The translations under genes were made by a program, and so were the position numbers. 64,000 nucleotides of DNA, from contig JACAVV010000006.1 of NCBI GenBank assembly GCA_024648695.1, forward strand, positions 1-64,000, given 5' to 3'. Below, piece after piece: positions 8,865-23,695 of this stretch (the stretch's first letter is position 1; the number at the start of each line of letters is the position of its first letter). This stretch comes from Nitrospina sp. Its GTDB lineage: Bacteria; Nitrospinota; Nitrospinia; Nitrospinales; JACRGP01. A model generated the notes under the pieces. It saw only the letters and a list, made by a program, of their open reading frames with translations, ran no database searches and had not been told where the DNA came from.

Positions 8865-10199
8865 ATGGTTGATTTTTTTTTCACTTGTCTTTTGGGAGGC
8901 AGGGTTTTTATGCATAGATCTATTCATAAATATTTATCCATATTTTATTTAATGAATTTCCTTTTCATATCATCCATGATCCTGTCCACCACGCTTATGG
9001 CTCAGGAAAGGGGATTCAAAACGGTTCCTGCTCCGGCTACTCCCACGCCGGCACCTAAGATAGAGAAGGAGTTCAAATTTTTATATAATAAGAGTCATGC
9101 CCTCATCGTTGGTGTTAGCGACTACACTAACGGTTGGCCCGATTTGGCAGGAGTTTTAAAAGATGTCGATCTGGTAAAAGTGGTTCTTGAGTATCATGGA
9201 TTCGAGGTGGAAGTGGTGATGAATCCCACTAAAAACGAAATGGAAGAGGCCTTTTCAGGATTTATCAGCCGCCATGGTCTGGAATCGGATAACCGTTTGC
9301 TGTTTTATTTTGCAGGACATGGCTACACACAAAAGCAAACCTACGGGGAGGAAATGGGCTACATCGTTCCTTCAGATACCCCGGATCCTGAAAAGGATCT
9401 GAATGGGTTCCTTTCCAATGCCATGAGCATGCATCAGATAGAAGTGTATGCAAAAAGAATCCAGTCAAAGCATGCGATGTTTTTATTTGACAGTTGTTTT
9501 TCAGGGTCAATCTTTTCCATCACTCGAGCGATGGAAATGCCACAAAGCATCAATTACAAAATAAGCAAACCGGTGCGGCAATTCATCACTTCCGGAGGCG
9601 CCAATGAAGAGGTGTCAGACGACAGTATTTTCCGCGGCCAATTCATTGCCGCTTTGAATGGCGACGGCGATCTCAATAAGGATGGGTTTGTTACCGGGGC
9701 AGAACTGGGTATGTTTTTGCAGGATTCAGTTACCAATTATTCCCACGGTATGCAACATCCCCAATATGGAAAAATCAGGCATCCCATTCTGGATAAAGGG
9801 GACTACCTGTTTCCTTTACCAGACTCTGAACAGGTAAAAGTCCTTCAACAAAAATACGATATCGAATTAAAAAAGCTGGAAGAAGAACGTAAGCGCTGGC
9901 AGGAAAAACGTGAAAAGCTGAAGAAGGAGCGAATGCTGGCCAAACAAAGGCGGGATCTCGATATGATGGAAAAACATGTGGACAGCGATCCCAATCAAAC
10001 CGAAATCGAGCGTAACCTCGCGGCGGAACTGGAAGATTTATTGCAATTAAAGAAAGATCTGGGAAAGTTGAAAAATACCCCCACCCCCACCACCAGGGAC
10101 ACCCAGAACTTCAAGGGGAATCCCGATGTTCCCATGTGCTGGGATGATGAAGAGTTTACCAGCGTACCCTGTGGTGAACGGGGAACGCAGGCCCCCTAA
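8865..10199 (+). CDS. Exported caspase-like (peptidase C14) protein with coiled-coil tail
   Basis: This 444-residue protein carries a caspase/metacaspase p20-like domain at about residues 77-310. The catalytic dyad is visible as His152 in FAGHG and Cys211 in DSCFSG, after HALIVGVSDY. The N-terminus is hydrophobic and ends near LMAQE, so the protein is probably exported. A start at 8910 would give a cleaner signal peptide, and both starts have plausible ribosome binding sites (AGAGGA and GGGAGG). The acidic DLNKDGFVTGAELG segment looks EF-hand-like and may bind Ca2+, as in type I/II metacaspases. Residues about 330-400 form a strongly charged coiled coil. Bacterial relatives are Arg/Lys-specific proteases or stress and death factors. 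The substrate here is unknown. Confidence 0.85.
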   Translation: MVDFFFTCLLGGRVFMHRSIHKYLSIFYLMNFLFISSMILSTTLMAQERGFKTVPAPATPTPAPKIEKEFKFLYNKSHALIVGVSDYTNGWPDLAGVLKDVDLVKVVLEYHGFEVEVVMNPTKNEMEEAFSGFISRHGLESDNRLLFYFAGHGYTQKQTYGEEMGYIVPSDTPDPEKDLNGFLSNAMSMHQIEVYAKRIQSKHAMFLFDSCFSGSIFSITRAMEMPQSINYKISKPVRQFITSGGANEEVSDDSIFRGQFIAALNGDGDLNKDGFVTGAELGMFLQDSVTNYSHGMQHPQYGKIRHPILDKGDYLFPLPDSEQVKVLQQKYDIELKKLEEERKRWQEKREKLKKERMLAKQRRDLDMMEKHVDSDPNQTEIERNLAAELEDLLQLKKDLGKLKNTPTPTTRDTQNFKGNPDVPMCWDDEEFTSVPCGERGTQAP

Positions 10200-10387: not shown

Positions 10388-11755
10388 TTAAAATACATAA
10401 TTGAGCATGATGAATCCCCAATCGCTGTCTCCAGGTTTAAATGAAGTGCTATCGGGTCGCCCCCCTACATTGTGCATTAATTCTTCTGCTAAAAATAAAG
10501 AATATCCACCAATAAAAGTTAAATTGGGATGAAACCTGTATATTAGGGTCAAGTCCAACTCTTCACCCAAATAGGTGTCTCCAACCACACTGGCCGGGAC
10601 TACCGCGGAATGTGCTTCCTGAGCCGTCCAGAAAAAATGCAGATCCCCCTTTATGGTTACCTTTTTAAAAGGTTGAAACCCCACTTTAACTGCCAAATCC
10701 TGAAGGCCAAGGGCTTGAGTTCCATTGGCTAAATTAAAAGATCCATCAGGTTTTGCTCTGCCCACATTTAGGAACCTGTCCATGAACCCATGGTACTTAT
10801 GTCCCGTGGGAAACAAGGGGTCGAAAGCGGTATAAATTTCATCTTCGTTGCTGTCGCCAGAAAGATAATCGTACCAAAGCGTTATGAAGGGTTTATATTT
10901 GACATCGAAATTTTTTCCAATACGGACACCAAATAAAAAAGCGCTCCTTCCTGAGTTGGTTGTGTTTTCCAAAAAGTCTGCACTGCCGATTTGGTAATAA
11001 AACTCACCTCTGTATTTTAGGCCGAATACCTTTCCAGCCTGACGAAATCCAAATGTATAAATATCATTGTCCGGAAATTCTTGACCGTTCAGGGAGTCCT
11101 CATCAGCATAAATGAAGTAACCTGAAAATTTACCTCCTAATACTTTTTTTAAGTTTAGCCAGGCAACATGCACCGTAGAATCTCTATCATCGTCATTCCC
11201 TTCAGTACCATTTTCCTGAGTTTGTGAAAAAATATAAGTGAGGGTTAAGTTTTTCTTTTTCAACCATATTGAAACCCCATCATGCGTGGTCGCTCCTTGA
11301 TTCCAACCATTATTACCAAATAGCCTGTGACCATCTAAAATGATTTCCTGCCGGCCAAACTTAACCTCCATAGGAAGGTCAAAAGGTTTTTTCACCGTGA
11401 AATATGCCTGGTGAATTCCTACTGAATTATCTCGCTCATCAATAGAACTTCCAGAATCAAAATCGCCAAAATTTCTTACACTTTGAAATTGAATAAAAGA
11501 ACTCAGTTGTTCATCCACCTTGGTTTTTACATTCAACCTGATTCGCGTGCTGAGAAATTGGAAAGACTCTGTTTCCTTATCAAAGTCACGGTCCTGGATT
11601 TCGTATCGTGGCCGCATTTGACCGCCCAGACGAATATCGATTGCCTGAGACAGGGATGAAAATAGGAAGATTCCCAAACCCAGCAATATTGCCAGGTACC
11701 ATTTGGGGGAAAAATGATTTTCAGGTTGATCTTGAGTCATTACCTTTTTAACCAT
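10388..11755 (-). CDS. Alginate-export (AlgE)-type outer-membrane beta-barrel porin
   Basis: This outer-membrane protein of about 455 residues starts at the ATG at 11755, overlapping the stop codon of the upstream gene, rather than at the longer frame beginning at 11836. After a short N-terminal tail comes a signal segment (WYLAILLGLGIFLFSSLSQA). The barrel then begins with IRLGGQMRPRYEIQDRDF and proceeds in alternating strands. Conserved family elements include FGRQEIILDGHRLFGNNGWNQGATTHDGVS and the aromatic terminal strand WGFIMLNYVF. Relatives move anionic polysaccharide or small solutes across the outer membrane. No alginate synthesis genes are nearby, so the substrate is unknown. Translational coupling to the cNMP-binding protein suggests joint expression. 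Confidence 0.85.
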   Translation of the reverse strand: MVKKVMTQDQPENHFSPKWYLAILLGLGIFLFSSLSQAIDIRLGGQMRPRYEIQDRDFDKETESFQFLSTRIRLNVKTKVDEQLSSFIQFQSVRNFGDFDSGSSIDERDNSVGIHQAYFTVKKPFDLPMEVKFGRQEIILDGHRLFGNNGWNQGATTHDGVSIWLKKKNLTLTYIFSQTQENGTEGNDDDRDSTVHVAWLNLKKVLGGKFSGYFIYADEDSLNGQEFPDNDIYTFGFRQAGKVFGLKYRGEFYYQIGSADFLENTTNSGRSAFLFGVRIGKNFDVKYKPFITLWYDYLSGDSNEDEIYTAFDPLFPTGHKYHGFMDRFLNVGRAKPDGSFNLANGTQALGLQDLAVKVGFQPFKKVTIKGDLHFFWTAQEAHSAVVPASVVGDTYLGEELDLTLIYRFHPNLTFIGGYSLFLAEELMHNVGGRPDSTSFKPGDSDWGFIMLNYVF

Positions 11756-12296
11756 CTTCAAGTTTCCTGTGGACTTTATCAAATTCCTGAAGGGTTTCCT
11801 GAGTCGCCGTTTTAATATCGTCCGCAGGGCCATCAAGAATATTCATCAACCGGGTTTTAATTTCCGCTACTGAGTGGTTCATTTCTTCCAGCTTATTGAC
11901 GAGTATTTTTATCACTTCGTCCTTAAATTTGTTGAGCGTTTCCGGATCCAGAGTGGAAAACATAAAACCGTCGAATTGTAAAACCACCACCTCTTCCCTG
12001 GCAACCACATTTGTCAAACGTGGCGAACCCGTAAAAAAGGGCAGGGCACCAAAAATGGACCCAGACTTGAGGGTGTTGATTTCCGCTTGTGGCATTTCAT
12101 TTTTGGTGATTGACACTTCCCCCTTGAGCAATATAAAGATTGCAGTGTCCAACTCTCCCTGTCGAATGACAAAATCGTCTTCGGAATAAACGAACAAATT
12201 GGTCCGTATTTCTGCAAGCTTCCTTTTTTCATCAAAACTGAAGCTGTCGAAAAAAGGAATTCTATTTAGTAGGTCGAAGAGTTCGTTTTTATCCAT
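11748..12296 (-). CDS. Stand-alone cyclic-nucleotide-binding domain protein
   Basis: This 182-residue cytoplasmic protein has one Crp-type cNMP-binding beta-roll at about residues 10-125: LFDLLNRIPFFDSFS, DDFVIRQGELDTAIFILLKGEVSI and LKSGSIFGALPFFTGSPRLTNVVA. The phosphate-binding cassette is unorthodox, with GALPFFTGSPRLT where classic cAMP receptors have GELAL...R-A/S, so cAMP binding is not assured. There is no helix-turn-helix. The remaining helical tail is probably an interaction segment, so this is not a transcription factor. Its stop codon overlaps the start of the porin gene (ATGGTTAA). Confidence 0.85.
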   Translation of the reverse strand: MDKNELFDLLNRIPFFDSFSFDEKRKLAEIRTNLFVYSEDDFVIRQGELDTAIFILLKGEVSITKNEMPQAEINTLKSGSIFGALPFFTGSPRLTNVVAREEVVVLQFDGFMFSTLDPETLNKFKDEVIKILVNKLEEMNHSVAEIKTRLMNILDGPADDIKTATQETLQEFDKVHRKLEDG

Positions 12297-13974: not shown

Positions 13975-15087
13975 TTATTCATTGATAACTGATGGATATC
14001 TGACATCAAGCCCAAATCCGGAATCATTGATTCTTTTTTGCATTTTGTAAAGGCCATTATCTGAAAATTGAATGGGATTAGGAATGATATCCCATTGCAA
14101 TAAATAGATTCCAAAGGCTCCTTCCTGGGCAAGCAAATTTTTCGAAACCCTGTTGGCCAGGGTTAAGGCAACGCGACTCAATATACTGGTCTCTCCCACC
14201 TGAGCGCCAATGATTATGGGGATCTTCAGCTTTAATGCGTTCTCAGCAATTTCAATGGATCTTAACAATCCGCCCATTTTTGAGACTCTTAGATTTATCA
14301 CCCAGGCTTTCGGTATGTTTTTTAAAAACCGAAATTGTTTAAAGGTACAGAAGCTTTCGTCCAGAATAATTTTTAACCCCGTCCCTTTGTAGACTTGAAC
14401 CAAACCTTCGAAATCTGCAGTTTTCAAGGGTTCCTCTATAGCGAAAACAGGATGGGGCAGTGCCCTGATATAAGCTATTGCTTCTTCAGGATACGCCCAT
14501 AAATTATTCGCATCCAACCTGACTCTAAGGGCAGTAGAAGGAATAGCCTTTATTTGATGCATTCGATCTTTGTCTCCTTTTAACTCGCCGGACAGTTTGA
14601 GTTTGAAATCGAACATATGGAGCTGTTTATAAAACGCCAACTGCTTTTGAAATGTTTTGCTACTGCCAATCCCTAACACAGCGGTATATTGAAACTTTCC
14701 CGTCACTTCAGGAAATCCCAAAAGAATATCCACCGATTGGCCGGTTTCTTTTCCCAACAAATCCAACAGCGCAATTTCCAGCGCGCAAAAAGCAGCTGGA
14801 TTGGAATCGATGTCTTCCCTGTGAGATAAAATCCAGGCCTTTAAATCGCCAAGGGTCTCGATTCTAATCAGTTCCTTTCTGAATTCATCAAAGAATGCCA
14901 TGCACGATTCAATGGATTCTCCCGTAACGTATTCGCGGGGACAACCTTCTCCATAACCCTTTAAACCATTATCAGATTCGATAATTGCCAGTACGCTCTG
15001 GGTTTCTGATCGCTCGGCTGAGGCATGCTTGAATACCACCTGGAATGGAATTTTTAGCTGTTCTAAATGAAGGTTTTTAATCTTCAT
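13975..15087 (-). CDS. Enolase-superfamily enzyme, MLE/dipeptide-epimerase-like
   Basis: This 370-residue member of the muconate-lactonising branch of the enolase superfamily would abstract the proton alpha to a carboxylate using Mg2+. The active site is intact: K-x-K at 162/164 (FKLKLSG), metal ligands Asp192 (RLDANNLW), Glu218 (AIEEP) and Asp243 (ILDESF), and the opposite-face Lys270 (VSKMGG). Its closest feel is to L-Ala-D/L-Glu epimerases. However, the D-x-D motif of true dipeptide epimerases near the last barrel strand reads WDII (Asp333) here, so the substrate may differ. An o-succinylbenzoate synthase-like role is the main alternative. It is the last gene of a four-gene overlapping operon and overlaps the GH3 ligase gene by 11 bases. 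Confidence 0.82.
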   Translation of the reverse strand: MKIKNLHLEQLKIPFQVVFKHASAERSETQSVLAIIESDNGLKGYGEGCPREYVTGESIESCMAFFDEFRKELIRIETLGDLKAWILSHREDIDSNPAAFCALEIALLDLLGKETGQSVDILLGFPEVTGKFQYTAVLGIGSSKTFQKQLAFYKQLHMFDFKLKLSGELKGDKDRMHQIKAIPSTALRVRLDANNLWAYPEEAIAYIRALPHPVFAIEEPLKTADFEGLVQVYKGTGLKIILDESFCTFKQFRFLKNIPKAWVINLRVSKMGGLLRSIEIAENALKLKIPIIIGAQVGETSILSRVALTLANRVSKNLLAQEGAFGIYLLQWDIIPNPIQFSDNGLYKMQKRINDSGFGLDVRYPSVINE

Positions 15088-16759
15088 TGTTTAGACCGTA
15101 AGCAGAAAAGTCGAATGAGCAATCCCTGGATTGCAACAGCCGAACAAATTTAAATTGGCTTTCACGCTGGCCTTTTGCAATCAAACTGTTTTTAAAAGCC
15201 TCGCCACAACCCTTTTTCAGGAAAATAATTTTCGTCGGGTTCAAACGTTGGCTTAGCCGCTTGGTCTTGAATTCTAAGTTGGACGCAAACAACTGTTCTT
15301 CAAATTTCAGCTCTATTTCTTTGAGCGGATCAGATTCGATATAAAGCCTGTATTCCATTCGGGATGCATCGGCTATCATTAAAAAAAACTCGAATTCTAA
15401 ATGAGTTTGTTTCTTAAGGGTCTCCAGTGCTCGAATCACCTGGTATTCACTTAGTTTCTCTCCGGTAAGGTTGGTGATTCCCTTTCCTTTCTGTACAAAA
15501 GTGATGGTCGGGGTGGCGTTAAATTTCCCGGTCACTTCTATAATGTCATTAATAAAATAGCGGTATAAACCGTTGAAAGTGGTGACGATAAGGTAATACT
15601 GTTTGCCCGTCTCAATTTGATTCAAAAGGAGAAACTTTTTGTCCGGCTTATCCCATTCGAGAACTTCCACAAATTCGAAAAAGTTTTCCTGGAAAGTTGG
15701 AAGGATGATGTTGTGTTCAACATCGATCGTAAGGCCTCCCGTAAACTCACTCGAAAGGTAGCCAAGCTCCACGATTCGGGTATGGGAGGGCAACTTGCTT
15801 TTCAATTTTGGAATCAGGGTTGTGCAGTTGCCACCGGTCCACGTGGCTATGGCCTTCAGATGTGGCCAGAAATCCGCAAAGGTGAATGAGATCTTCTCTT
15901 GCAATATTTTGGTTAACTCCTGGGCCCGATTTGGTTTTACTTTTAAATAGTTCTGAGAAAGCGCTTCCGAAGATTTGCCCAAATGGTTCAAATCACCCGT
16001 ATCCAGAAAAGACAACAGGGTCTTCTTATTATTTTGAATCACCTCCAACAACCTCAAGAATGTAGAAGGATTTGCGCTGGCAAAGAAGGTGATATTCTTC
16101 TCATTCAAACTGTACGCGGCCATTAACAGATACTTTAAGTGGTAGTCTTCAATGGCTAGAATTTCGGTGGGAAGTACATATTTTTTCTTTAACAGCCAGG
16201 GCATGCTTTCCAGCAGAAGACCCGACATAGAACCAAAGGGTGTTCCTGTGCCCAGTTGGCCTTCGATCACTGGACTCCCGACAGCTAAAATTGGACCATC
16301 AAACACTCCCTTCACTCCATTGTATTTTACCCAGGAAAATAAGGCTTGATTGAGTTTTAAATAGTTAAGAGTGGATTTTAGAATAGGGATGTTCTTAGGT
16401 CGCCCGGTGGTTCCACTAGTTTGGGAATACAAAACGGGATTTTCGTAATTGATGGCAGGAGTTTTATTATTCTCCTGGTCATCAATATACTTTCGAAGGC
16501 TTTCATAGGTTTGAACGGGAACACGTTTGCAAAGTTCCGGGTGACCTTGAATGGTCTTGAAGTCATGCTCAATACCAAACTCGGTGGATTGTTGCCTGGC
16601 CAATATTTTTTCAATAACCTTATTTTGTATCTGTTGAGGATCGCGTGTATTTCGAATGAAAGGTTTCCAGTAAAACCTTTCAATGAACTTCATTTGCAAT
16701 CGGAGCAAGGCTTGATAGCCCCATTGGATTAAAGCCGTTCCCCAATCAGACATTTTCAA
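15077..16759 (-). CDS. GH3-family acyl-acid amido synthetase
   Basis: This 560-residue protein is of the GH3 auxin-responsive family, adenylate-forming ligases that activate a carboxylic acid with ATP and join it to an amino acid. The ATP-binding motif YSQTSGTTGRPKNIPI is near residue 110. GLYRYFINDIIEVTGKF lies at about 420, in the family's usual place, and is followed by the hinge and C-terminal domain with LTGEKLSEYQV. The length is typical. It is cytoplasmic. Bacterial members are rarely characterised, and neither the acyl acid nor the amine is known here. It overlaps the desaturase-type gene by 14 bases and the epimerase gene by 11, so they are translationally coupled. An acyl-amino-acid or peptide-like product further acted on by the epimerase is an inference. 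Confidence 0.88.
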   Translation of the reverse strand: MKMSDWGTALIQWGYQALLRLQMKFIERFYWKPFIRNTRDPQQIQNKVIEKILARQQSTEFGIEHDFKTIQGHPELCKRVPVQTYESLRKYIDDQENNKTPAINYENPVLYSQTSGTTGRPKNIPILKSTLNYLKLNQALFSWVKYNGVKGVFDGPILAVGSPVIEGQLGTGTPFGSMSGLLLESMPWLLKKKYVLPTEILAIEDYHLKYLLMAAYSLNEKNITFFASANPSTFLRLLEVIQNNKKTLLSFLDTGDLNHLGKSSEALSQNYLKVKPNRAQELTKILQEKISFTFADFWPHLKAIATWTGGNCTTLIPKLKSKLPSHTRIVELGYLSSEFTGGLTIDVEHNIILPTFQENFFEFVEVLEWDKPDKKFLLLNQIETGKQYYLIVTTFNGLYRYFINDIIEVTGKFNATPTITFVQKGKGITNLTGEKLSEYQVIRALETLKKQTHLEFEFFLMIADASRMEYRLYIESDPLKEIELKFEEQLFASNLEFKTKRLSQRLNPTKIIFLKKGCGEAFKNSLIAKGQRESQFKFVRLLQSRDCSFDFSAYGLNNED

Positions 16760-17618
16760 TTCCGTTTTGAAAGGGAGTTTTCAGTTGACCTATAAACCCC
16801 ATTGGGTAGGCTCTGTTTTTTAATCCTAAATCTCCAACCAATCGATGTTCTGGTAAAAATCTGGTCCCGAAAACAAGATCCCAAACAATCAGGTTGTTGC
16901 CGTAATTGCTATTGGATTCTTCTGGGATTTTGGAGTGGTGCCAGCGATGTAATTCGGGTCCGCTCACCAGATAATTGAGCCAGCCAAGGCGCAATTCAAT
17001 ATTGCAATGCTGGAAAAAACCATTGATGGAATAAAATATAAAATAGAGCGCCATGACTTCTTCACTGACTCCCAACAGAATAAAGGGAAAAGCATCGAAC
17101 CCATACTGGATCGCTTTTTCAATGGGATGAAATCGTGCAACATTCACCCAATAAAGCTTATGAGGGGAATGATGCACCGCATGTAAACGCCAAAGCAATG
17201 GCCATTCATGGCAGGCCCGGTGAAGCCAGTAGCGAAAAAAATCTGCGGTGAGCACCATAAGAGCGGTTTGAAATCCTGTCGTCAATTGGTGGGGCCAAAG
17301 CCCCTTGAGGTTCGATGAATTTAAAAGGTCGGTTTCCAGAAGAGTAAAGGCCACCAACATAGATAATATTCGGGGCAAAACAATTTGGACGGCCGCCATG
17401 TAAATTGCATCCTGGGTGACATCATTTTTCGAGCTCAACCATACTCGTCGATGCGGAAACTTAAATTCAAGAAAGGTGATCAGACTCGCCGCTGAAATAA
17501 CCGTCAAATATGTAGCATACGAATGTTCTAATCCAAAGTGGATCATGGTAAAAAAACAAATAAATCCGAAAGCCATAACCCAGGGATAAACTCTTTGAAT
17601 AGTTTGGGAGGGATTCAT
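16746..17618 (-). CDS. Sterol-desaturase/fatty-acid-hydroxylase superfamily membrane enzyme
   Basis: This 290-residue integral membrane di-iron enzyme has the superfamily's histidine clusters: HRACH, HAVHH (as LHAVHHSPHK) and LHRWHH, plus HPIEK and FFQHCN. These bind two irons and use O2 to hydroxylate or desaturate lipid-like substrates. Several membrane helices occupy the N-terminal half. The gene overlaps the upstream membrane protein by 4 bases and the GH3 ligase by 14, so the four genes form one unit. Hydroxylation of an acyl chain or isoprenoid that feeds the GH3 reaction would make sense, but the sequence does not fix the substrate. Confidence 0.88.
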   Translation of the reverse strand: MNPSQTIQRVYPWVMAFGFICFFTMIHFGLEHSYATYLTVISAASLITFLEFKFPHRRVWLSSKNDVTQDAIYMAAVQIVLPRILSMLVAFTLLETDLLNSSNLKGLWPHQLTTGFQTALMVLTADFFRYWLHRACHEWPLLWRLHAVHHSPHKLYWVNVARFHPIEKAIQYGFDAFPFILLGVSEEVMALYFIFYSINGFFQHCNIELRLGWLNYLVSGPELHRWHHSKIPEESNSNYGNNLIVWDLVFGTRFLPEHRLVGDLGLKNRAYPMGFIGQLKTPFQNGIENV

Positions 17619-18049
17619 GAGTCATTGCCATATTTGAAATGAAAACGGCCGGCCAGTAGCAGGAGCGAAGCTAAAACCAAATGGAAAAAAGTTGGAATAC
17701 GCTGACCAAACCAAAAATGATCACTCGCAACGGTTAATCCCGCCAACAATCGAAACAACATTATATAAAAATATATGCCGCCAAGAATCAGGCAAATTCT
17801 TCCTGTAGTTCGCCGGGCTTCCACTTTATTGCTTAAAAATTGATTTACTGCCCGGAAAGCAAAAAAAATTATAATTAATTGCGCCAAAAGTAAAACCCAA
17901 TAGGGCAGAGCTCCACTGTGCCAGGCTTCGAAGGGAGGCAGAAAGGGTAAAGGATAAATGGATTGAATTCCCTGAGCCAAAACCCGAAAACAAAACAAAC
18001 CCAATAAAAAAGCCAGGCAAAAACCATATTTCCTGGAAATGGATTTCAT
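17615..18049 (-). CDS. Small multi-pass membrane protein of unknown function
   Basis: About four hydrophobic helices fill this 144-residue protein: FCLAFLLGLFCFRVLAQ, WVLLLAQLIIIFFAF, ICLILGGIYFYIMLFRLLAG and FFHLVLASLLLLAG. I chose the ATG at 18049 (MKSISRKYG) because the longer frame begins with TTG at 18118. The ribosome binding site is weak at both. It is the first gene of the desaturase/GH3/epimerase operon, overlapping the desaturase-type gene by 4 bases. It may be an accessory subunit or redox partner of that enzyme. No family recognised. Confidence 0.65.
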   Translation of the reverse strand: MKSISRKYGFCLAFLLGLFCFRVLAQGIQSIYPLPFLPPFEAWHSGALPYWVLLLAQLIIIFFAFRAVNQFLSNKVEARRTTGRICLILGGIYFYIMLFRLLAGLTVASDHFWFGQRIPTFFHLVLASLLLLAGRFHFKYGNDS

Positions 18050-18211
18050 ATGGCCGGTTGTCCCAATAATGAGGAATATTTTAAATCCATAATAATGGAA
18101 TATTGAAACAAGAGCCAATTTGATTGCAGATAGCTTTCTTGACTAAGGCACATGGATGAATTTTCATTGACAATATCATGATTTGGAGTATTCTCCTGTT
18201 TAACAATTTAA

Positions 18212-18355
18212 TAGACGCTTTGCCAAAGGGAAGACGGTGAAACTCCGTCGCGGTCCCGCCGCTGTAACCGGTGACGAAACCTGAAATCATCCACTATTTG
18301 CTTGTCAAATGGGAAGGAACAGGGAGTAGATTGAACCGGGAGCCAGAATACCTTG
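18212..18355 (+). promoter_or_regulatory. Cobalamin riboswitch 1 (upstream of btuF operon)
   Basis: The leader carries the hallmarks of the cobalamin (B12-element) aptamer: the conserved GGGAA...GGTGAAACTCCGTCGCGGTCCCGCCGCTGTAACCGGTGACGA core, a CCACT element near 18290 and the terminal B12 box GGGAGCCAGAATACC at 18338-18352. Orientation and position, about 100 bases before btuF, fit control of the whole cob operon. A terminator-like hairpin follows, so it probably acts at transcription. Confidence 0.93.
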
Positions 18356-18410
18356 TTGTCATTTATCGTCTTCAACTCTTCGTGGACTGAGAGGATGAGG
18401 AAAAATATTT

Positions 18411-19384: not shown

Positions 19385-20130
19385 TGAAACTTTTTTTCTC
19401 AGCATGGTCTTTTTTGACCGTATTTCCCTGTCCCGGTAAATCCGTCGATTATGAAAAGGGAATGGTTTTCTATTTTCCCCTGGTCGGTTTGGTTCTGGGA
19501 ATATTGTTACTGGGTGTCGATTTTCTGGCCGGACGTGTTTTTGGAGATTCTTTACGGATAGGCCTGGACGTTTTATTTCTAGCCTGGGTTAGTGGTGGGT
19601 TGCATCTGGATGGTTTAGCTGATTCGGCCGATGGCATGTTTTCTCACCAAAGCAAGGACCGGGTGTTGGAGATCATGCGGGATTCCCGAATTGGTGTCAT
19701 GGGTGTACTGGCCATTGTGTTTTGCCTGGGGTTTAAGGCGGTGGGTTTTGAAAGCCTGCGATGGGACCAATGCTGGTGGCTGTTTCTGGCGGCGCCTGCT
19801 TTATCGCGCTGGACTCAGAGTTGTGGGCTGGTATTTCTGAGCAATGCTCGTGGGGAGGAAAGTTTGGGGGCCCTCTTGTATCAATCCAGGAAATATCGTG
19901 TGCTCAGTTTAGGCATTATTCCCTCTGCGTTGTTTTGTTTTTTTGGAGGACTTAAAGGGATTTTCCTGCTATTGGGTTTTATGCTCGTCCTGATTGTATT
20001 GTTCCGTTACTTTAGCTCAAAGATCGGGGGCATGACGGGTGATACTTTGGGGGCGACGACAGAAATTACAGAGTCTTTTTTATTCGCTTTTGGCAGTTTA
20101 GCCTGCCGGGATTCCTTGATTTTCAATTGA
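19384..20130 (+). CDS. cobS: Adenosylcobinamide-GDP ribazoletransferase (cobalamin synthase)
   Basis: This 248-residue polytopic membrane enzyme joins adenosylcobinamide-GDP to alpha-ribazole (phosphate), the last assembly step of cobalamin. The family signature GGLHLDGLADSADGMFS is near residue 60, followed by LEIMRDSRIGVMG and, towards the C-terminus, KIGGMTGDTLGATTEITE. The length is normal. It is second in the btuF-cobS-cobP/bluB-cobC-cbiB series with one-base overlap to btuF, and is therefore under riboswitch 1. Confidence 0.95.
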   Translation: MKLFFSAWSFLTVFPCPGKSVDYEKGMVFYFPLVGLVLGILLLGVDFLAGRVFGDSLRIGLDVLFLAWVSGGLHLDGLADSADGMFSHQSKDRVLEIMRDSRIGVMGVLAIVFCLGFKAVGFESLRWDQCWWLFLAAPALSRWTQSCGLVFLSNARGEESLGALLYQSRKYRVLSLGIIPSALFCFFGGLKGIFLLLGFMLVLIVLFRYFSSKIGGMTGDTLGATTEITESFLFAFGSLACRDSLIFN

Positions 20131-20144
20131 TAAAATTGGTAAAG

Positions 20145-21380
20145 ATGAACAAAAAAAATATTTTAATCTCAGGTGGATGTCGAAGTGGTAAAAGCCGGCA
20201 TGCACTGGCTCTGGGTCAGAAGTTTACCGGCCGAAAGGTGTTCCTGGCCACGGCTGAAATTTTTGACGATGAAATGAAATCCCGTGTGCAAAAGCACCGC
20301 GAGGAAAGATCCGACGACTGGATCACCATAGAAGAACCTTTGGACCCATTAGCGGCAATATTAAAAGAAAAGGATAAAGCAGATGTGATCCTTTTGGATT
20401 GTCTCACCCTTTGGGTTTCTAATTTATTATTAAAGTACGACGATGAAAAAGTTGTGCTGGAGATTGTGAATGAACTGTTGGAAGCCCTGCCTGTATTACC
20501 CTGTTCCCTGATGTTTATCACCAACGAAGTGGGTGGGGGAATCGTACCGGAAAATAAACTGGGACGGGATTTTAGGGATCTGGCCGGACTGGTCAATCAG
20601 AGAATCGCAGAGGTTTTTGATGAAGTTGTTTATATGGTTTCTGGAATTCCTGTCAAAATCAAGGAACCAATCCAGCAAAATGGTGCAGGAAACAAAAAAT
20701 CGACGCATGAATTTTCGAAAGAAAAAAAACAGGGTTTGTACGAAGCCATTTATCAAAGAAGAGATATGCGACATTTTTTGCCAGACCCTGTGGATCCCGA
20801 GGTACTGGGTAGAGTTTTGCATGCGGCCCATCATGCAGGTTCGGTGGGGTACATGCAACCCTGGAGCTTTATGGTTATTCAGGACCCCGAAATTAAAAAA
20901 CGGGTGGCCGATAACTTCTCGGAAGCCAGTCGGGAGGGTGCTGAACGCTTTGAAGGAGAACGGAAGAAATTGTACGAATCTCTCAAGCTGGAGGGTATTC
21001 AGGATGCCCCGGTTAATATATGCGTGACCTGTGATCGCAACCGATCCGGACCCAATGTTTTGGGTCGCAACACCATGCTGGAGATGGACCTTTTCAGTAC
21101 TTGTTGTGCGGTTCAAAATCTGTGGCTGGCGGCCAGAGCGGAAGGGTTGGCAGTGGGTTGGGTGAGTATACTGTATCCGGAACGCCTGAAAGCTGATTTG
21201 GGCATTCCGGACTCAATTGAAATCGTGGCCTATCTTTGTGTTGGGCACACCGAATCGTTTTACAAAAAACCGTTGCTGGAATCGGCGGGATGGGGCAAGC
21301 GCCTTGACTTGAAGGACCTGGTTTTTTATGACCGTTGGGAAAGCAAGGAATGTGACAATCCCTTATTGCTCCCGGAATAG
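20145..21380 (+). CDS. cobP-bluB: Fused adenosylcobinamide kinase/guanylyltransferase and 5,6-dimethylbenzimidazole synthase (CobP-BluB)
   Basis: One reading frame encodes two enzymes. Residues 1-172 (ATG at 20145; the longer frame starts at TTG 20127) are CobP/CobU: Walker A GGCRSGKS, guanylylated His in RVQKHREER, LLDCLTLWVSNLL and FITNEVGGGIVP. After a polar linker, residues about 195-411 are BluB: YQRRDMRHFLPDPV, AGSVGYMQPWSF and GPNVLGRNTMLEMD. BluB is the flavin enzyme that cuts FMNH2 with O2 to give DMB. The kinase half makes AdoCbi-GDP and the BluB half makes the lower-ligand base; both products converge at CobS. There is no stop or frameshift at the junction. The overlap of DMB formation with nucleotide-loop assembly makes the fusion functionally sensible. 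Confidence 0.93.
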   Translation: MNKKNILISGGCRSGKSRHALALGQKFTGRKVFLATAEIFDDEMKSRVQKHREERSDDWITIEEPLDPLAAILKEKDKADVILLDCLTLWVSNLLLKYDDEKVVLEIVNELLEALPVLPCSLMFITNEVGGGIVPENKLGRDFRDLAGLVNQRIAEVFDEVVYMVSGIPVKIKEPIQQNGAGNKKSTHEFSKEKKQGLYEAIYQRRDMRHFLPDPVDPEVLGRVLHAAHHAGSVGYMQPWSFMVIQDPEIKKRVADNFSEASREGAERFEGERKKLYESLKLEGIQDAPVNICVTCDRNRSGPNVLGRNTMLEMDLFSTCCAVQNLWLAARAEGLAVGWVSILYPERLKADLGIPDSIEIVAYLCVGHTESFYKKPLLESAGWGKRLDLKDLVFYDRWESKECDNPLLLPE

Positions 21381-23499: not shown

Positions 23500-23525
23500 A
23501 GGTCTAATATTTAAGTCCATACACA

Positions 23526-23662
23526 TTCCGGTTTAGGGAAGTTCGGTGAAAAACCGACACTGTCCCGCAACTGTGACGGGAAGAAAACCGTTAGATGCCA
23601 CTGTCTTGCAATAGATGGGAAGGTGCGGTGAGTAAAGGCCCCAAGTCAGGAAACCTGGCCGG
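23526..23662 (+). promoter_or_regulatory. Cobalamin riboswitch 2 (upstream of btuB)
   Basis: This is a second B12-element, with GGGAAGTTCGGTGAAAAACCGACACTGTCCCGCAACTGTGACGGG, an exact GCCACTG at 23597-23603 and the B12 box AAGTCAGGAAACCTGG at 23643-23658. It lies 34 bases before btuB. No T-tract hairpin follows. The leader runs straight to AAAGGAG and the ATG at 23696, so translational control is more likely than termination. Confidence 0.94.
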
Positions 23663-23695
23663 AATGATTTTAACTTTCGAGGAAAAGGAGTCGAT

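Follow-up and report, generated by a model that had tools for sequence, protein, structure and literature searches.

A four-gene cassette of a GH3 ligase, a di-iron hydroxylase, an enolase-superfamily enzyme and a membrane protein, conserved in Nitrospinota and Nitrospirota and possibly devoted to a modified N-acyl amino acid

Introduction

What process could bring together an acyl-adenylating amide synthetase, a membrane di-iron hydroxylase, an enolase-superfamily enzyme and a small membrane protein in a single overlapping operon? The question is raised by positions 13975-18049 (minus strand) of the first 64,000 nucleotides of contig JACAVV010000006.1 from Nitrospina sp., a stretch which was analysed as a whole and is called the window in this article. 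Bacterial GH3 enzymes have been tied to lipid synthesis only recently, and in the part of PMC12493201 consulted here the substrates of the other bacterial GH3 enzymes are left open. The original prediction, made from the DNA of the window, knew of no described bacterial system with this set of genes; we likewise found no paper describing it in the literature searched (open-licence PubMed Central), and the text of PMC12493201 itself gave no match for Nitrospir-, enolase, muconate, racemase, sterol desaturase or hydroxylase.

It was found that the four genes form a unit which is conserved in two phyla and which almost certainly serves one process. As to the nature of this process we propose, with a probability of roughly 0.45, that the cassette is a biosynthetic unit for a modified, aminolipid-like N-acyl amino acid, and that its last enzyme would work by one-base chemistry.

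Results

The four open reading frames spanning 13975-18049 follow one another in the order MEM, HYD, GH3, EPI:

17615..18049, minus strand: MEM, four-helix membrane protein of no known family, the first gene
16746..17618, minus strand: HYD, membrane di-iron hydroxylase of the FA_hydroxylase family, nearest named family OlsE
15077..16759, minus strand: GH3, acyl-adenylating amide synthetase with a TTG start, nearest named family OlsH
13975..15087, minus strand: EPI, enolase-superfamily enzyme of the MLE subgroup, in which Arg267 replaces the second catalytic Lys

The computed overlaps between successive genes are 4, 14 and 11 bases, as expected from the overlapping four-gene operon that had been predicted. 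The MEM frame reaches 18118 from an upstream TTG, and the ATG at 18049 agrees with the starts of its orthologs.

The same gene order on the same strand was recovered in 19 of 19 loci with a strong GH3 ortholog: the window, five further loci of its own phylum, four from named genomes and nine more from a draw of Nitrospirota genomes. Six of these genomes belong to the phylum of the window and 13 to Nitrospirota, and the cassette proteins are about 50% identical across the loci. Since the order recurs in 18 further loci, the operon is more than a chance arrangement, and accidental co-location of the four genes was rejected. In the 18 intact loci the genes lie close together at all 54 junctions, gaps never exceeding 24 bp, and the long apparent overlaps at several junctions are taken as start codons called too early. 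The original prediction had regarded the four genes as one functional unit, had suggested a search for conserved synteny of the GH3, enolase-superfamily and sterol-desaturase trio, and had named a lack of conserved neighbourhood as its refutation; the trio is kept together and the sets are complete in all 19 loci, thus the claim withstood this test.

The genes around the cassette vary among the 19 loci. The most widely shared flanking family occurs in seven of them, all Nitrospirota; among the six loci of the window's phylum only one family is found in as many as three (L013, L014, L016), and one further family is common to L013, L047 and L048. Mere local synteny of close relatives is ruled out by these differing flanks. 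The protein distances of the four genes correlate with each other (r 0.81-0.95 over 18 loci), and the GH3 and EPI trees concur on two groups, which are the two phyla. This would fit genes that were inherited together for a long time and lost on many occasions, or else a single ancient transfer. A plasmid-borne system was also considered and rejected, since no plasmid ortholog was found: among the matches listed, plasmid proteins are at most 28% identical to EPI and at most 26.2% to GH3.

The distribution of the cassette is patchy, being found in 6 of 77 genomes of the window's phylum and 10 of 295 of Nitrospirota, the two phyla covered by the profile searches. When GH3 was searched for in the genome of the window and in 60 relatives, 6 of the 61 had a match, and the GH3 profile run over the 77 genomes of the phylum returned those six again. 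In the draw of 295 Nitrospirota genomes, the phylum of G079, 12 matched, ten strongly (one of them G079 itself, home of locus L010) and two weakly (G296 and G359); the weak matches were left out of the count, no other cassette gene having been found beside them. The named genomes were scanned with short exact peptide patterns of one protein, which gave four loci (L008-L011), all labelled Nitrospirales or Nitrospirota. Because this sole genome-wide scan relied on such patterns, a wider distribution is possible.

The EPI profile led to nearly the same genomes. In the window's phylum it found the same six as the GH3 profile, while the Nitrospirota draw gave 37 matches at E<=1e-20 with a clear score gap: 11 at 3.1e-168 or better, one partial match at 5.3e-73 and the others at 1.1e-31 or weaker, which are taken to be other MLE-type enzymes. 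The 12 strong genomes are the ten with GH3 plus G342 and G203. Altogether 21 genomes carry an EPI ortholog (6, 12 and 3 named ones outside the draw). The full block is present in 19 of them and a remnant in another; the one left over is either an exception or lies at an assembly edge. This is G342, where EPI stands near the contig end and no GH3 was found in the remaining ~415 bp. The remnant, in G203 (L079 1398-2643, minus strand), has MEM in pieces and the first part of HYD fused to the second half of EPI, with GH3 absent; this decay indicates that the cassette can be lost. One of the 19 full blocks, in G209 (L055 1476-4218, minus strand), has all four genes in order, but GH3 and EPI are each broken, either by real decay or by sequencing error.

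The amide ligase and the di-iron oxygenase of sterol-desaturase type named in the original prediction were both recovered by their signatures. In GH3 the Pfam GH3 N, M and C domains score 166.7, 74.4 and 49.2 bits (cut-off 23.6 each), the whole protein can be aligned to plant GH3 amido synthetases (best 6avh, E 3.1e-45), and T114-S115-G116-T117-T118, E338, R400-Y401-F402, N404-D405 and G433-E434-K435 are invariant in 10 of 10 orthologs; these include the ATP/AMP-binding motifs of adenylation. The sole NCBIfam family which GH3 matches is OlsH (NF052613), in all ten orthologs. In HYD the FA_hydroxylase Pfam domain scores 109 bits (cut-off 31), and ten histidines (H133, H137, H146, H149, H150, H164, H204, H224, H227 and H228) are invariant in 10 of 10 orthologs; among them are the three histidine clusters that characterise membrane di-iron enzymes. 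OlsE is the only NCBIfam model matched by all ten HYD orthologs, and it is the best model for each.

MEM has an ortholog in 19 of 19 loci with invariant W, S, G, P, Y, Q, R and H positions, which suggests that it may be more than a plain anchor. Its AlphaFold2 model consists of four long helices (pLDDT 82.8), with no PDB fold match at E<=0.001 and no PDB sequence match. The window MEM matched no Pfam family at E<=0.001, and no MEM member matched a Pfam or NCBIfam family above cut-off (Pfam scores being listed for 11 of the 19); the best Pfam E-value of the 19 members belongs to AveC_like, which covered two helices only of one member at 24.8 bits (cut-off 26.6).

EPI is a member of the MLE subgroup of the enolase superfamily: MR_MLE_C (80 bits) and MR_MLE_N (26 bits) are above their Pfam cut-offs, and both the KxK pair on strand 2 (K162, K164) and the three carboxylate metal ligands (D192, E218, D243) are invariant in 18 of 18 orthologs. 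What sets the group apart is the position of the second catalytic lysine on the sixth strand, where all 18 orthologs have Arg267 and six of six reference enzymes (annotated plasmid proteins) have Lys, as do all five PDB alignments among the matches listed. The DxD motif that dipeptide epimerases have near the C-terminus is also absent: the window EPI has QEGAFG there, and both reference epimerases have VDLDG. The structure model of EPI is of moderate quality (pLDDT 68.8), side-chain geometry being beyond its reach.

In the original prediction a lipophilic acid would first be hydroxylated, then conjugated to an amino acid or peptide, and finally epimerised. The residues of EPI bear directly on the last of these steps. 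Racemases of this kind work with a pair of lysines, according to the consulted part of PMC8142540. With the second lysine replaced in every ortholog and no DxD motif present, epimerisation is doubtful, and in this respect the prediction was not supported in its original form; the last step is probably not a racemisation. In a modified form of the predicted scheme, EPI could still be a true racemase or epimerase in which Arg267 or Lys270 serves as the second base and the substrates are N-acyl amino acids or dipeptides; the cassette would then yield either a lipid whose head group is a D-amino acid or a dipeptide conjugate that has been epimerised. The best fold matches (3jva, 1jpm, 2p88), which EPI resembles in sequence as well, are dipeptide epimerases and an N-succinyl-Arg/Lys racemase, and Lys270, one turn beyond the changed position, is invariant in 18 of 18 orthologs. 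With the exchanged lysine, the lost DxD and scores far below the cut-off of every epimerase model in NCBIfam (76.6 vs 500, 75.9 vs 400 and 47.2 vs 343 bits), we consider it unlikely.

It is likewise improbable that the substrate is a lipophilic acid of another class, such as a terpenoid or aromatic acid instead of a fatty acid, which HYD and a lactonising or dehydrating EPI would first modify in its free form, leaving the conjugation by GH3 to the end. The full-length similarity of GH3 to plant hormone-conjugating enzymes would suit such a scheme, as would the best NCBIfam match of EPI, muconate cycloisomerase (TIGR02534), a model which matches 18 of 18 members; however, its 86.7 bits are below the cut-off of 334.95, the best model of HYD is a lipid head-group hydroxylase, and no terpene or polyketide gene recurs among the ten neighbours of the cassette that were scanned. 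These ten are of unrelated kinds, including a UbiE-type methyltransferase, a sulfatase-modifying factor, a pseudouridine synthase, a cytochrome c and a TIR protein.

That EPI is an o-succinylbenzoate synthase (MenC) of menaquinone synthesis with merely incidental neighbours is very improbable and was rejected, since the MenC models match it at 86.0 and 72.8 bits against cut-offs of 200.65 and 130.55, the synteny is tight in 19 of 19 loci, and MenD is above cut-off in none of 10 cassette genomes compared with 7 of 14 control genomes.

Several further features of the window were recorded. A cobalamin riboswitch (18187-18374, plus strand, 88.8 bits) is divergent from the four-gene operon and precedes cobalamin genes for a periplasmic binding protein, CobS, CobU, an aminotransferase and CbiB. 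In this group a single frame (20127-21380, plus strand) encodes a CobU kinase/guanylyltransferase together with a nitroreductase-family domain, perhaps a BluB-type enzyme, which would make it a CobU-BluB fusion. A second cobalamin riboswitch (23513-23676, plus strand, 93.3 bits) precedes a TonB receptor, after which comes a CobB/CobQ-type protein. On the other side of the cassette, a caspase-domain protein (8865-10199, plus strand; Peptidase_C14, 71.7 bits) begins like a signal peptide and has a long tail of charged residues, and at 10388-12296 (minus strand) the gene of a cyclic-nucleotide-binding protein overlaps that of an alginate-export-family outer membrane protein.

Discussion

Substrates, order of steps and product of the proposed pathway are inferred, the substrate classes being drawn from distant relatives of the cassette enzymes. 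GH3 would adenylate a lipophilic carboxylic acid with ATP and pass the acyl group on to an amino acid at its alpha-amino group, yielding an N-acyl amino acid whose carboxylate stays free. HYD would then hydroxylate this lipid, most likely on the amino acid part, by analogy to OlsE, for which the ornithine part of ornithine lipid is described as the site of hydroxylation in the consulted part of PMC3972451. EPI would hold the free carboxylate on Mg2+ while the second lysine of KxK takes the alpha proton; elimination of the new hydroxyl group, or a cyclisation, would be a likelier outcome than racemisation, and a one-base reaction is favoured since the lysine of the opposite side is an invariant arginine. 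EPI is placed after GH3 because an MLE-type enzyme requires a carboxylate and an alpha proton and its nearest relatives take N-acyl amino acids: what a GH3-type enzyme would make is the kind of substrate used by the nearest structures of EPI. MEM might be a partner which provides electron supply, a scaffold or transport.

For an N-acyl amino acid lipid as the product the chance is slightly better than even. A more particular suggestion, which we hold to be quite unlikely, is a new lipid-directed reaction of the enolase superfamily, in which GH3 makes the amide, HYD places a hydroxyl on the beta-carbon and EPI either removes water or forms a ring, so that scattered members of the two phyla would make a membrane lipid with a dehydroamino acid or a cyclised head group; such a lipid class is not known to us from bacteria.

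A number of observations weigh against the proposal of a modified N-acyl amino acid. Neither named family is confirmed by its equivalog model: GH3 of the window scores 70.8 bits for OlsH (NF052613, cut-off 620) and HYD 180.6 bits for OlsE (NF052566, cut-off 475). As these scores are far below the cut-offs and NCBIfam gave a single matching model for GH3 and hardly a second one for HYD, the nearest family is not necessarily near. In favour of the proposal, three core paralogs taken as controls from genomes with the cassette scored 85.7-104.7 bits for OlsE, approximately 75-95 below the window HYD; by this measure the cassette HYD is closer to OlsE than the core paralogs are, yet it is not an OlsE by the curated test. 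The reference menC-annotated protein and the CatB cycloisomerase also have Lys at the position of Arg267, so the exchange points to no known elimination, and the reaction of EPI may be of a new kind. Arg267 might in principle serve as a base, and Lys270 might substitute for the missing lysine; the latter may be likened to the arginine of the R266/K263 pair of NSAR, for which the literature search gave nothing usable. No O-acyltransferase gene such as OlsI is present within the cassette. Finally, 3-hydroxypalmitate is a poor substrate of OlsH in the consulted part of PMC12493201, so a pathway that hydroxylates the acid before the amide is made would run in another order. Apart from these points, it was observed that Acetyltransf_5, the OlsB-type acyltransferase domain, was found in none of nine of the ten cassette genomes and as a partial match in the tenth.

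The cassette represents another genetically coupled GH3 system, in which two modifying enzymes and a membrane partner without a named family occur together in two phyla. It also defines an enolase-superfamily group marked by an invariant lysine-to-arginine change in the catalytic set, from which a clear prediction for biochemistry follows. Should the cassette make a membrane lipid, this compound could be used as a marker of the bacteria with these genes.

Among known systems, the OlsH/OlsI pathway of Singulisphaera acidiphila is similar in that a bacterial GH3 enzyme stands in an operon with lipid-modifying enzymes (PMC12493201, the part consulted). There OlsH converts free fatty acid with ATP and Mg2+ to N-acyl-ornithine and needs serine 115 of motif 1, and the authors expect that other bacterial GH3 enzymes take other amino acids. 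The cassette GH3 retains the motif-1 serine, but its partners are a di-iron hydroxylase, an enolase-superfamily enzyme and a membrane protein, whereas those described in this part of the source are an N-methyltransferase and an alpha/beta-hydrolase. With the plant GH3 acyl acid amido synthetases (AtGH3.15, GH3.12, JAR1) the cassette enzyme shares full-length homology and the adenylation motifs, although at a distance (profile E 3.9e-31 to 3.1e-45). HYD shares with OlsE the histidine motifs of membrane di-iron enzymes. EPI has the fold, the KxK pair and the three metal ligands of the dipeptide epimerases and N-succinylamino acid racemases, and it differs from them by the arginine in place of the second lysine and by the absence of DxD.

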